In this document: positions 20,751-42,381 of the stretch, in pieces
Layout: the number at the start of each line of letters is the position of its first letter
Position numbering within the stretch: position 1 is the first letter of the stretch
DNA from: Hyphococcus sp.
GTDB lineage: Bacteria > Pseudomonadota > Alphaproteobacteria > Caulobacterales > Parvularculaceae
Direction: 5' to 3'
Assembly: GCA_028281665.1 (NCBI GenBank)
Contig: JANQJK010000004.1
Coordinates: 129,165-193,164 of the forward strand
Length of the DNA stretch: 64,000 nt
Notes under the pieces: generated by a model
What the model was told of the DNA's origin: nothing
The model's input: only the letters and a program-made list of their open reading frames with translations
The model's database searches: none
Program-made: the position numbers and the translations under genes

Positions 20751-21452
20751 TCAGGCGACGTCGGCCGCTTTTTCTTCCTGCGGGTCGCGCAGCACATAGC
20801 CGCGGCCCCAGACCGTTTCGATGTAGTGTTCGCCTTCGGTGGCGGACGCCAGTTTCTTGCGTAGTTTGCAGATAAAGACGTCGATGATTTTGAGTTCCGG
20901 CTCGTCCATGCCGCCATAAAGATGGTTGAGGAACATCTCTTTTGTCAGCGTCGTGCCTTTGCGTAAGGAGAGAAGCTCCAGCATCTGATATTCTTTGCCG
21001 GTGAGGTGTACGCGCTGGCCGGCGACTTCCACCGTCTTCGCGTCAAGGTTCACCACAAGCTTACCGGTGGTGATCACCGATTGCGAATGACCTTTCGAGC
21101 GGCGAACGATGGCGTGAATGCGCGCAACGAGTTCGTCCTTGTGGAACGGCTTCGTCATATAGTCGTCGGCGCCGAAGCCGAGGCCGCGCACTTTCGTTTC
21201 GATGTCGCCCTGGCCGGTGAGGATCAGGATCGGCGTGTTCACTTTTGAAACGCGCAGCGACTTCAGAACGTCGAAACCCGTCATGTCCGGCAGGTTCAGA
21301 TCGAGCAGAATAATGTCGTAGTCATAAACCTTGCCGAGATCGACGCCTTCTTCGCCAAGATCGGTGGTGTACACATTGAAGCCGTCGGACTTCAGCATCA
21401 GCTCAATGCTCTGGGCGGTGGCGCCGTCGTCCTCGATGAGCAAAACCCGCAT
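20751..21452 (-). CDS. ctrA: Cell-cycle response regulator CtrA
   Basis: A 233-residue OmpR-family response regulator nearly identical in layout to CtrA of Caulobacter, the master regulator of the alphaproteobacterial cell cycle. It binds TTAA-N7-TTAA and controls replication initiation, flagellar and division genes. The receiver domain (1-118) has the acidic pocket ED8D9, phosphorylation site Asp51 (ILLDLNLPD), Thr in ILTGQGD and Lys in DYMTKPF. The winged helix (about 125-225) carries [32 protein letters not shown] and [14 protein letters not shown]. The C-terminus ends ...AADVA, related to but not the same as the AA end needed for ClpXP turnover in Caulobacter. Monocistronic, divergent from fliI. 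Confidence 0.97.
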
Positions 21453-21782
21453 GGTCGGTCTCCTGTCAGGCGCGCGGGCATCCCCTTAACCGATGAAAAC
21501 CGCGCTCTTATATTTTTGCAGCGCCGATGCTAACGACGATATGCTTTCACATTGGTTAATGCCGTTACCGGCATTGCTCCCAATTGCCCGATTTTTTTAA
21601 TCCGGCGACAATCTCTCTTACCGTTGAAGCAGCATAAACAGTTGATTTGCGGCGCTTGTCATTAAGCAATGCAAATTTTTCAAAAATTTTTCAGCCGGTT
21701 GTCTTTACGGGCGCTTAAGCACGCGCGGGTTAATGCTGACGGGGCGAATACCGCATAAATGAACAGTGGGCGTTAACTGGAT
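21453..21782. other. ctrA-fliI divergent intergenic region
   Basis: No gene is visible. The region is AT-rich and contains seven TTAA tetrads, several as GTTAA or TTAAC half-sites. None is paired at the canonical 7-nt spacing; the closest pair (TTAAGC...GGTTAA near 21715-21733) is spaced by 11. No GANTC is present. It must carry promoters of both ctrA and fliI, but no box could be fixed with confidence. Confidence 0.6.
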
Positions 21783-23126: not shown

Positions 23127-23575
23127 CCGGACGTTTTCGCGGCGCTGACAGCATCGGCAAATTATTGAAAATCGCCCGGGCGGAAGCGGAAATCGTGCGC
23201 GTCGACCTTGCCGACATCGACCGCGCCCTGGCATCGGCCGCCGCTGAAATCGAAGGCGTCGCCGCTGCGGTTGCGCGGGAGGAGCGCGGATCCACCGACG
23301 CTGCGGCGTTCGCCGTCTACGCCGAAGCCATGCGGGAGCGCCGGTTTAACCTGAACAAGACGTTGAGCGCCCTTGAAGGCGCGCGCGAAGCGGCGCGGGA
23401 TAAGCTTTCCGTCGCGCTCGCCGAGATTGCCAAGCTTGAGCGTCTGGCTGACATCAATGCGCGCGATTTGCTGACGGCGCAGCGCCGGCGCGAGGCCCGC
23501 GCGGACGCCGATAACGCCGTGCCCCATGTCGCCGCGCGCATGGCCGGCGCGGGGCGAAAATCGATCGCCCGTTAA
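23123..23575 (+). CDS. fliJ: Flagellar export protein FliJ
   Basis: A 150-residue, almost wholly helical coiled-coil protein (heptad-like Ala/Glu/Arg pattern) that starts 4 nt inside the fliI stop. FliJ is the stalk-like chaperone-escort partner of FliI, comparable to the gamma subunit of F1. Sequence alone is low in signature (HTH absent, coiled coil only), so the assignment rests on position and structure. Its TAA stop is part of a perfect CtrA box. Confidence 0.85.
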   Translation: MTGRFRGADSIGKLLKIARAEAEIVRVDLADIDRALASAAAEIEGVAAAVAREERGSTDAAAFAVYAEAMRERRFNLNKTLSALEGAREAARDKLSVALAEIAKLERLADINARDLLTAQRRREARADADNAVPHVAARMAGAGRKSIAR

Positions 23576-23586
23576 CGCTTTCTTAA
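23572..23586. promoter_or_regulatory. CtrA box overlapping the fliJ stop codon
   Basis: TTAA (23572-23575), 7-nt spacer CGCTTTC, TTAA (23583-23586): an exact match to the CtrA consensus. It lies 215 bp upstream of mraZ and may control the dcw operon. Confidence 0.65.
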
Positions 23587-23642
23587 TCCAAAATCGGTGA
23601 CGCCACTCCTCGGCGATTCGCGGTGTTCCGTTTCTGTTCCGG

Positions 23643-23669
23643 AATGGGCGCTGGACTCTGCCCATTTTC
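23643..23669 (+). terminator. Possible weak terminator after fliIJ
   Basis: Inverted repeat AATGGGC (23643-23649) / GCCCATT (23660-23666) with a 10-nt loop, followed by TTCT. The stem is short and the U-run poor, so it may instead be a protein site or chance. Confidence 0.3.
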
Positions 23670-23698
23670 TGTGCCGGTGGGGCGTAAATTCCTTTGCG

Positions 23699-23723
23699 TC
23701 CCAGTAAATCCCATGATATCCCG
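23699..23723 (-). promoter_or_regulatory. MraZ box (three direct repeats)
   Basis: Read on the minus strand, three GGGA-containing pentamers (CGGGA, TGGGA, TGGGA) occur at exactly 10-bp steps: 23719-23723, 23709-23713, 23699-23703. This is the TGGGA-N5 repeat pattern known for MraZ autorepression, 78 bp upstream of the mraZ ATG. Confidence 0.75.
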
Positions 23724-23800
23724 AATGTCGCCGGCAAATTTTCGGCGCAAGGGACAGCGTTGCCCGCTTCGGGGCGCGCGGACGGGCGGAGACAAGGCGC

Positions 23801-39271: not shown

Positions 39272-39316
39272 GCGCCCCGTCGCCTGAACGATTGCCCAAT
39301 GAAGGAGACGCCGCGC

Positions 39317-40630
39317 ATGAAACGGCGCGCCGCGACCAATTCCGACGCTTCAAATGTTCGGCCCCTGCGTCGCAAGCGGGACGATCGCGTGATCGCCGCG
39401 ATTGATCTCGGCGCGTCCAAGGTTGCTTGTTTTATCGCCGTCCTGACGCCGGACCGTGAAAGCGACATGGGCGCGGAAGTGATCGGCGTCGGCTGCTGCG
39501 GTCTGCCGCCGCGGGCTGCGACCGGGCGATCGGTCGATAATCTCGAAGCCTCGTTGCGCCGCGCGGTTGAAGCGGCCGAGCGCATGGCGGGCGTCGAAAT
39601 CGGCGCCGCCCATGTCGCCGTTCCCGGTCGTCTTGTTCGAGCCCGGCGCATTGGCGTCGATCTGGAAATTGCCGATGGCGTCGTGACGCAGGAGGATATC
39701 GACGACGCGGTTCGGGAAGGGGCGGGTCTTGCTGCGGCGCCGGACTGCGCTGCGTTGTCCGCAAGTCCGATTGCCTATCGCGTCGACAGCGAGGCGGTCT
39801 ATGACGATCCCGTCGGACGGCCGGGCGCGCTGCTTTCTGCCGAGTTGCTGGGCCTGTCGGTGCGCGAAAGCGTCGTCGACAATTTGTCCGCGATGATTGA
39901 ACGATGCGGCCTGAAAGCGATGGAAGTCGTCCCGGCGCCGGTCGCCGCGGCGGAAAGCTGCCTCATCGAGGACGAAAAGGAACTGGGCGTGGTGCTGATC
40001 GATATCGGCGCCGCGTCGACCGGCTATGCTGTTTACGATGACGGCGCACTTGTTGACTGCGGCGGCGTCGGTGTCGGCGGCGGGCATATCACGAAAGACG
40101 TTGCGCAGATTTTCGGCGCGCCTCTTGCGGATGCGGAGCGCATCAAAACACTGCACGGCGCGGCGCTGATCGGGCCGGGCGACGAGCATCGGTTCGTTGA
40201 TTTTCCGCGCCTTGGCGACGGCGCCGATCCAAGCCGGGCCAGCCGCGCCGATCTCTGCGAAGTGATTATTCCGCGCATGGAAGAAATTTTCGAACTGGTT
40301 GCGGCGAAGCTGCCGGGCGACCGGCATGTGCGAACGAACCTCAGGCGCGCGGTGATTACCGGCGGCGGCAGCCTGTTGCTGGGCGCCCGTGAGATCGCCG
40401 AAAAGACCCTTGCCATGAAAGCCCGCATCGGCCGGCCGCTGTCGATGATCGGCGCGCCGGAAGTCGGCGCCGCGCCCGGATTTTCCGTCTGCGCCGGATT
40501 GATCCTGAATGCGGCGTCGAAGCCGCCGGCGGGCAAGTTTTTTCTTGGCGGCGCACGCCAATCACTTCATCCGTTAGCGAAACCGGCGATGTTCGGCGGC
40601 GCTGGCGCCTGGCTTCGCGCAAAATTTTAA
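39317..40630 (+). CDS. ftsA: Cell-division protein FtsA
   Basis: Actin-like protein that anchors FtsZ to the membrane. First nucleotide loop IAAIDLGASKVACFIAVL; SHS2 region; second loop reads D229-IGAAST, where most FtsA proteins have DxGGGTT; C-terminal amphipathic membrane-targeting helix (GGAGAWLRAKF). The ATG at 39317 has an AAGGAGA ribosome site 8 nt upstream, so it is preferred over the ATG at 39299 that lies before that site. 437 residues. The gap to ftsZ is a regulatory leader. Confidence 0.95.
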   Translation: MKRRAATNSDASNVRPLRRKRDDRVIAAIDLGASKVACFIAVLTPDRESDMGAEVIGVGCCGLPPRAATGRSVDNLEASLRRAVEAAERMAGVEIGAAHVAVPGRLVRARRIGVDLEIADGVVTQEDIDDAVREGAGLAAAPDCAALSASPIAYRVDSEAVYDDPVGRPGALLSAELLGLSVRESVVDNLSAMIERCGLKAMEVVPAPVAAAESCLIEDEKELGVVLIDIGAASTGYAVYDDGALVDCGGVGVGGGHITKDVAQIFGAPLADAERIKTLHGAALIGPGDEHRFVDFPRLGDGADPSRASRADLCEVIIPRMEEIFELVAAKLPGDRHVRTNLRRAVITGGGSLLLGAREIAEKTLAMKARIGRPLSMIGAPEVGAAPGFSVCAGLILNAASKPPAGKFFLGGARQSLHPLAKPAMFGGAGAWLRAKF

Positions 40631-40637
40631 TCCGCCG

Positions 40638-40652
40638 TTAATGACCCGTTAA
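40638..40652. promoter_or_regulatory. CtrA box 1 upstream of ftsZ
   Basis: TTAA, spacer TGACCCG (7 nt), TTAA followed by C: an exact TTAA-N7-TTAA match, 95 bp before the ftsZ start. CtrA is known to repress ftsZ in Caulobacter. Confidence 0.8.
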
Positions 40653-40674
40653 CGATTTGGAAAGGGTTCTGAAC

Positions 40675-40704
40675 GAATCTTTAATTCGTGATTAATCATG
40701 ACTC
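40675..40704. promoter_or_regulatory. Two GANTC (CcrM) methylation sites in the ftsZ leader
   Basis: GAATC at 40675-40679 and GACTC at 40700-40704 flank CtrA box 2. In Caulobacter, CcrM methylation of GANTC promotes ftsZ transcription through GcrA. Confidence 0.6.
40681..40695. promoter_or_regulatory. CtrA box 2 upstream of ftsZ
   Basis: TTAA, spacer TTCGTGA (7 nt), TTAA: a second exact CtrA-consensus match in the same 116-bp leader, 52 bp before the ftsZ start. Confidence 0.8.
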
Positions 40705-40746
40705 TTTGCCTCGCCCTCAATCGCCCCATGCCAACCGGAGCATCCA

Positions 40747-42381
40747 ATGCCGTTAAATCTAAGCGTGCCCGAACTTACTGAACTCAAACCGCGCATCAGC
40801 GTCATCGGCGTCGGCGGCGCCGGCGGCAACGCCGTTAACAATATGATCGAGTCCCAGCTCGAAGGCGTCGAATTCGTCGTCGCGAACACGGATGCGCAGG
40901 CGGTCGGCCTGTCGAAGGCCGACAAGAAGATTCAGCTTGGCGTGAAGACGACCCAAGGGCTCGGCGCCGGTTCGGTGCCGGATATCGGCCGGGCGGCGGC
41001 GGAAGAGTCCATTGACGAGATCATGGAGCATGTGGGCAACGCGCATATGCTGTTCGTCACCGCCGGCATGGGCGGCGGCACCGGCACCGGCGCAGGGCCC
41101 GTTATTGCCAAGGCCGCCAAGGAGCGCGATATTCTGACGGTTGGCGTCGTAACCAAGCCGTTCCATTTCGAGGGCGCGCGGCGCATGCGCATTGCGACGG
41201 CGGGCATCGAGGAATTGCAGAAGCACGTCGACACGCTGCTGATCATTCCGAACCAGAACCTGTTCTCCATCGCCAATGAGCGCACGACCTTTCACGAAGC
41301 GTTCGCCATGGCCGATCAGGTTCTGCATTCCGGCGTGCGCGGCATCACCGATCTCATGGTCATGCCTGGCCTCATCAATCTCGACTTCGCCGATGTGCGC
41401 ACCGTCATGAGCGAGATGGGCAAGGCGATGATGGGAACCGGCGAAGCCGAGGGCGACAAGCGCGCCATCGAGGCGGCGGAAGCGGCGATCTCAAATCCGC
41501 TGCTCGACGAAGTCTCCATGAAGGGCGCGCGGGGCGTACTGATCAATATCACCGGCTCCATGGATATGACGCTGTTTGAAGTGGACGAAGCGGCCAACCG
41601 CATTCGCGCCGAGGTCGATCCCGATGCGAATATTATTGTCGGCTCGACGTTCAATCAGGATCTTGAAGGCAAGGTGCGTGTCTCGGTCGTTGCCACAGGC
41701 ATCGACATCGAAGAGGACGAAAGCCGACCGACCGTGCGCGTCAACACCGGCGCGACGGCGAAACCGTGGCGCCAGCCCCTCGTGGTGAATGCGCCGGCGG
41801 ATGCGGTCGCAACGGCGAGCGCCGATGAAACGAAGCCCGCCGAACCGGCGCCGGCTGTGAGCGCATCGGCTCCGACGACTGCGCAGGCGACCGCAGCGCC
41901 GACTCCTGGCGCCGCTGGGTCGGAACCGGCGGCGAATCCGGTCGGCGACGTGCATGAACGCATCCGACGCATGCTCACTGAGGGCGCCGCGGGAGACCTT
42001 GCCGCGAAGCCGCCTTATCGTTCGCATGCGGCGACAGACGGCACGGTTGACGCCAGACGCGAGCCGCCCCTTGCGCCGCGACGCGCCGAAGAAGCCAAGC
42101 CCGCGCTCAATCCTTTCCGCGGGGCGCAGACTCTCGGCAAGAATCCCCTTGAGGCGGCGGTCGGCATCTTCAAATCCATAGGCGGCGCGCCCCGTGACGA
42201 CCGCGCCGAAGCGCCGGCCCCCAGACCGTTGGAACCGCGGGCGCCGGAGCCCGGAGGGCGCGAGCCAAGGGCCCAGGAGGCGTCAAAACCGGCCTCACGG
42301 GTGCGGGGCGACCTGTTTGAGGATCAGGAAGACGCCGATCTAGAGATTCCGTCCTTCCTGCGGAAGAAAAAGACCGGATAG
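40747..42381 (+). CDS. ftsZ: Cell-division GTPase FtsZ
   Basis: Tubulin-like GTPase that forms the Z ring. GTPase core to about residue 320: [54 protein letters not shown] (tubulin signature), and [21 protein letters not shown] long Ala/Pro/Glu-rich linker (about 330-525) precedes the C-terminal peptide [14 protein letters not shown] that binds FtsA and other partners. 544 residues, long as usual for Alphaproteobacteria. CCGGAG lies 8 nt before the ATG. Leader carries CtrA and GANTC sites; a strong terminator follows. Confidence 0.98.

Follow-up and report, generated by a model that had tools for sequence, protein, structure and literature searches.

The motifs in the ftsZ leader of this genome raise the question of whether transcription of ftsZ is tied here to the cell cycle through CtrA and GANTC methylation, and which of the motifs would carry that control. 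The leader (40631-40746 of the window, the whole 64,000-nucleotide stretch of DNA analysed) lies between ftsA (39299..40630; TIGR01174, 244.6 bits; stop codon 40628-40630) and ftsZ (40747..42381; TIGR00065, 406.9 bits), both confirmed by family models and, like all leader features described below, read on the forward strand. By FtsZ, the nearest named relatives are Marinicaulis sp. and other Parvularculaceae. The initial annotation had noted two perfect CtrA boxes (TTAA-N7-TTAA) and two GANTC sites, and all four are present: box 1 at 40638-40652, box 2 at 40681-40695, GAATC at 40675..40679 and GACTC at 40700..40704. It had missed a third box, also perfect, at 40627-40641, which overlaps the stop codon of ftsA; since the end of ftsA (TTTTAA) supplies its first half, the left part of the array reads TTAA-N7-TTAA-N7-TTAA. 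Numbered from the TTAA at 40649..40652 as position 0, the three boxes occupy positions -11/0, +32/+43 and -22/-11, and GAATC stands at +26. The TTAA at +32 (40681..40684) is embedded in TTTAAT (40680-40685), which reads as a possible -10 region.

A search of the leader against Rfam for structured RNA gave no match up to E = 1, and a scan for consensus sigma-70 promoters found none on the forward strand. TTTAAC is a poor -10. Between the half-sites lies the palindrome GTTCTGAAC (40666..40674), which is conserved in the window genus and kept in parts of two or three other genera, even in leaders that have no GANTC. LexA was considered as its reader and rejected, the alphaproteobacterial motif GTTC-N7-GTTC (PMC7987155) not matching the palindrome.

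Perfect TTAA-N7-TTAA boxes number 31 in the 3.35 Mb genome, against 42 for a reversed-pattern control, and three of the 31 fall within 69 bp of the ftsZ leader region. When the 120-bp leader was shuffled 50,000 times with its dinucleotides preserved, three boxes never arose and two arose once, and when the five TTAA were kept and their places randomised, the probability of at least three pairs at 11 bp was 0.00015. The GANTC sites behave differently in the same test: two or more occurred in about 16% of the leader shuffles, so that a pair is ordinary for this composition and conservation alone can argue for them. Across the whole window GANTC is strongly depleted, with 114 occurrences observed and 328 expected from dinucleotide content.

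To see which motifs are shared, we aligned the ftsZ leaders of 50 Parvularculaceae species from seven genera. TTAA at position 0 and TTAA at exactly +32, the latter always preceded by T (TTTAA), are found in all 50 leaders; in shuffled leaders the 32-bp spacing occurred in a mean of 0.36 of 50 and a maximum of 4. Between pairs of leaders, identity at the two half-sites is 0.93 and 0.97, falling to about 0.3 directly beyond the core. Because these species share ancestry, the counts of 50/50 are not independent trials, and the strength of the conservation argument lies in a spacing that stays fixed across genera whose flanks can no longer be aligned. In two congeners (L013 and L043) the conserved core is separated from the ftsZ start codon by roughly 100 bp of additional, repeat-like sequence.

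Around this fixed pair the remaining half-sites change. In 49 of 50 leaders the anchor has a partner at 11 bp, either upstream or downstream, and only nine leaders have both. The upstream partner (TTAA at -11) is found in 19/20 leaders of the window genus and in 6/30 elsewhere in the family, while the downstream partner (+11) is GTAA or CTAA, the latter an accepted CtrA half (PMC3751295), in all 29 leaders of genera g12, g13, g17, g18 and g19. In the window genus the +11 half-site has mostly decayed; xTAA survives in 4/20 species, and the window itself has GAAA (40660..40663). The +43 half of box 2 reads TTAA in 5/20 congeners and fits xTAA in 17/20, and the -22 half of box 3 is confined to the window species and the three species closest to it. 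Mapped on an FtsZ tree that includes outgroups, changes number one for the -22 half, five for the -11 half, and four each for the +11 and +43 halves, the outgroup pattern suggesting the direction of change. Box 1 is thus the shifted box of the genus, box 2 is perfect in a quarter of it and box 3 is private to four species, which makes the perfect boxes appear as recent forms of an older array. The conserved element is a pair of candidate half-sites 32 bp apart and not two perfect boxes. An alignment of leaders had been proposed to see whether box spacing is conserved, and the spacing that is kept belongs to the half-sites; a conserved design of two perfect boxes does not survive the comparison.

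The two GANTC sites fare unequally. GANTC is present at the +26 place in 18/20 congeners and in 31/50 of the Parvularculaceae leaders, with nine changes on the FtsZ tree; it is missing from 12 of the 13 species of g17 (0/3 with the site) and g18 (1/10). Ten genomes of g17 and g18 were nevertheless found, on searching, to have both CcrM and CtrA, with no exception among those searched. GACTC at 40700 occurs in the window species only (1/50 leaders). Given this difference in conservation, GAATC at 40675 is plausible as a candidate control point that depends on lineage, and GACTC is probably incidental. GANTC control, as originally proposed, is partly supported by the first site, which most of g17 and g18 lack, and is not supported by the second. 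Methylation input is most likely an optional layer, gained and lost between lineages, over a fixed layer formed by the CtrA array.

The arrangement was then compared with those of other families. Among 24 ftsZ leaders of Caulobacteraceae (family f3), a box stands at 0/+11; a third TTAA lies at exactly +32 in 17 of them, and 22 have it there or no more than 1 bp away. One leader contains the exact CtrA site TTAACCGCCGATTAA of C. crescentus ftsZ (PMC3751295, Table 2). The window has the 0 and +32 members of this 0/+11/+32 register, with GAAA at +11. With about 45 offsets possible, it is unlikely that candidate half-sites in Caulobacteraceae and Parvularculaceae would have come to share the register by coincidence. 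A box is likewise present in most leaders of f5 (Maricaulis and kin) and f4; some of these have GANTC near +40, and those of f5 often show the third TTAA near +49. A CtrA box before ftsZ is thus widespread in the order. The search used found no box in f2 leaders, but their start codons are uncertain. In Hyphomonas, ChIP identified ftsAKQZ as direct CtrA targets (PMC7200025).

The C. crescentus ftsZ promoter (TTAACCGCCGATTAA plus CGACTC) resembles the window leader in its CtrA box, its third TTAA at +32, its leader GANTC and its regulators CtrA, CcrM and GcrA. It differs in two respects. The partner half-site lies at +11 there and at -11 in the window genus, and GANTC lies outside the array, every one of the 24 Caulobacteraceae leaders having it at -15 to -17, whereas the window has no GANTC 15-17 bp upstream of its box and carries it inside the array at +26. 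In C. crescentus this GANTC falls between -35 and -10 (PMC3708114), which places the array downstream of the promoter. We suggest, tentatively and as a possibility we would not favour, that the 0/+11/+32 register at ftsZ predates the divergence of Parvularculaceae from Caulobacteraceae and has not shifted since, whereas GANTC went from a place outside the array to one inside it and the half-sites swapped sides. If so, the action of CtrA would have changed, from covering the region beyond the start to occupying the promoter itself, with the binding frame kept.

All trans-acting parts that such control would need are encoded in the genome. The ctrA gene (20751-21452, reverse strand; NF045991, 424.6 bits against a cut-off of 350) lies 19.2 kb upstream of the ftsZ leader, in agreement with the initial annotation, and a search elsewhere in the genome, which had been advised, recovered both ccrM (N6_N4_Mtase and RAMA domains) and gcrA (GcrA match, 173.9 bits). 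CtrA is 92-98% identical among the Parvularculaceae genomes searched.

Several other leaders in this genome also carry these motifs. In the ccrM leader (L138:2275-2474, minus strand), three GANTC accompany a perfect CtrA box that lies 118 bp ahead of the start codon. The mraZ leader (23572-23800), at the start of the division and cell-wall cluster, has a perfect box (23572-23586) over the stop of the preceding ORF, together with GATTC at 23615 and GACTC at 23654. The mipZ leader (L295:1171-1500) has GAATC and, after it, TTAA half-sites with a spacing of 21 bp, a layout that recalls ftsZ in Caulobacteraceae. The ctrA leader (21453-21782) contains no GANTC, unlike Caulobacter ctrA P1, where GANTC is at -29 (PMC4287350), and GcrA/CcrM input to ctrA may consequently be missing here.

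Taken together, the leader is probably a cell-cycle-controlled promoter in which an array of CtrA half-sites on one helix face is combined with GAATC as a candidate methylation site. CtrA~P is predicted to bind, probably cooperatively, at a dimer site built on the TTAA at 40649, with its partner 11 bp upstream in the window genus, and at a second half-site or box at 40681, 32 bp further on. Should TTTAAT serve as the -10, transcription would start near 40692 and GAATC would fall in the spacer between -35 and -10; box 2 would then span positions from about -11 to +4, with the beginning of box 1 near -54. CtrA acts as a repressor where a half-site is near -14 or -10 (PMC4287350), and the downstream site, positioned over the -10 and the start, would keep ftsZ off at high CtrA~P. 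The promoter would fire after CtrA is cleared, and methylation by CcrM of the GAATC just upstream of TTTAAT would raise firing, perhaps via GcrA. In Caulobacter, a GANTC located between -35 and -10 is associated with activation at 40-60 min (PMC4287350). The prediction of CtrA control is strengthened by a geometry that is invariant in 50 species and shared with the C. crescentus site, and by the presence of the regulators. Counting against this model are the blank consensus promoter scan of the forward strand, the moderate fall of ftsZ-lacZ when CtrA is lowered in Caulobacter (PMC3751295), and the absence of GANTC from g17 and from nine of the ten g18 leaders although CcrM is present in the ten genomes searched.

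Elements of the proposed promoter have counterparts in Caulobacter. CtrA represses hemE Ps cooperatively from two sites, at -35 and -10 (PMC11264516), which is a precedent for the graded or cooperative repression proposed in the initial annotation. The ftsZ leader likewise has two tandem candidate sites, one probably over the -10; the gene is another one, however, and for ftsZ the start and the cooperativity are predicted. Caulobacter ctrA P1 has GANTC in the spacer and a repressor half-site near -14 (PMC4287350), the same order of GANTC and then TTAA as in the window, at a distance of about 15 bp there and 6 bp here. The pilA promoter, with four CtrA sites, also has several tandem sites in one leader, but its spacing is irregular and its extra sites reduce and delay a gene that CtrA activates (PMC11264516).

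The sign of control in the preferred model is not certain. If the start is near 40692, the ancestral 0/+11 box would begin near -43, close to the place of activating boxes in Caulobacter (PMC4287350), and lowered CtrA moderately reduces ftsZ-lacZ expression in that organism (PMC3751295). Both observations would suit a CtrA-activated promoter, in which CtrA at 0 and the partner half-site help RNA polymerase near -35 and the +32 site does no more than cap the peak. We regard this as unlikely, though worth weighing, given that the box has shifted 11 bp upstream in the window genus and that the +32 half covers the presumed -10 and start, which is the place of a repressor (PMC4287350).

It is considerably less probable that the conserved block is a plain core promoter (-35 TTGG, -10 TTTAAC) whose likeness to CtrA half-sites is incidental. 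In g18 the TTG of the supposed -35 is not kept, but xTAA at the 11-bp register is; the 0/+11/+32 register recurs in Caulobacteraceae, whose ftsZ promoter is upstream of the array; the swap between -11 and +11 partners is left unexplained; and the consensus promoter scan was blank on the forward strand. These points weigh more heavily with us than the promoter-like spacing of TTTGG(A/T)AAG-N15-TTTAA in most genera. That the motifs are chance matches in a short, AT-rich intergenic stretch is scarcely credible: a box count above that of all 50,000 shuffles and a half-site spacing invariant in 50 species refute this reading for the CtrA array. The ordinary number of GANTC for the composition and the poor conservation of GACTC at 40700 do speak for chance, and for that one site it still holds.

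Repression by a CtrA array with a lineage-dependent GAATC thus remains our preferred reading of the leader. Control of ftsZ by CtrA and CcrM-type methylation is known biology and the arrangement is new, the new point being a fixed register of half-sites that swap partners, together with a mobile methylation site. We found no promoter data for Parvularculaceae in the literature, and the array gives exact bases for such work. The comparison separates a half-site spacing held by selection from GANTC sites and perfect boxes that drift, and cautions that not every GANTC or perfect box is a control point. It also provides a clear natural case of how binding sites turn over through a shift of register, a half-site exchanging its partner on one side for one on the other, at the promoter of a gene whose product, through its supply, helps set the timing of division.
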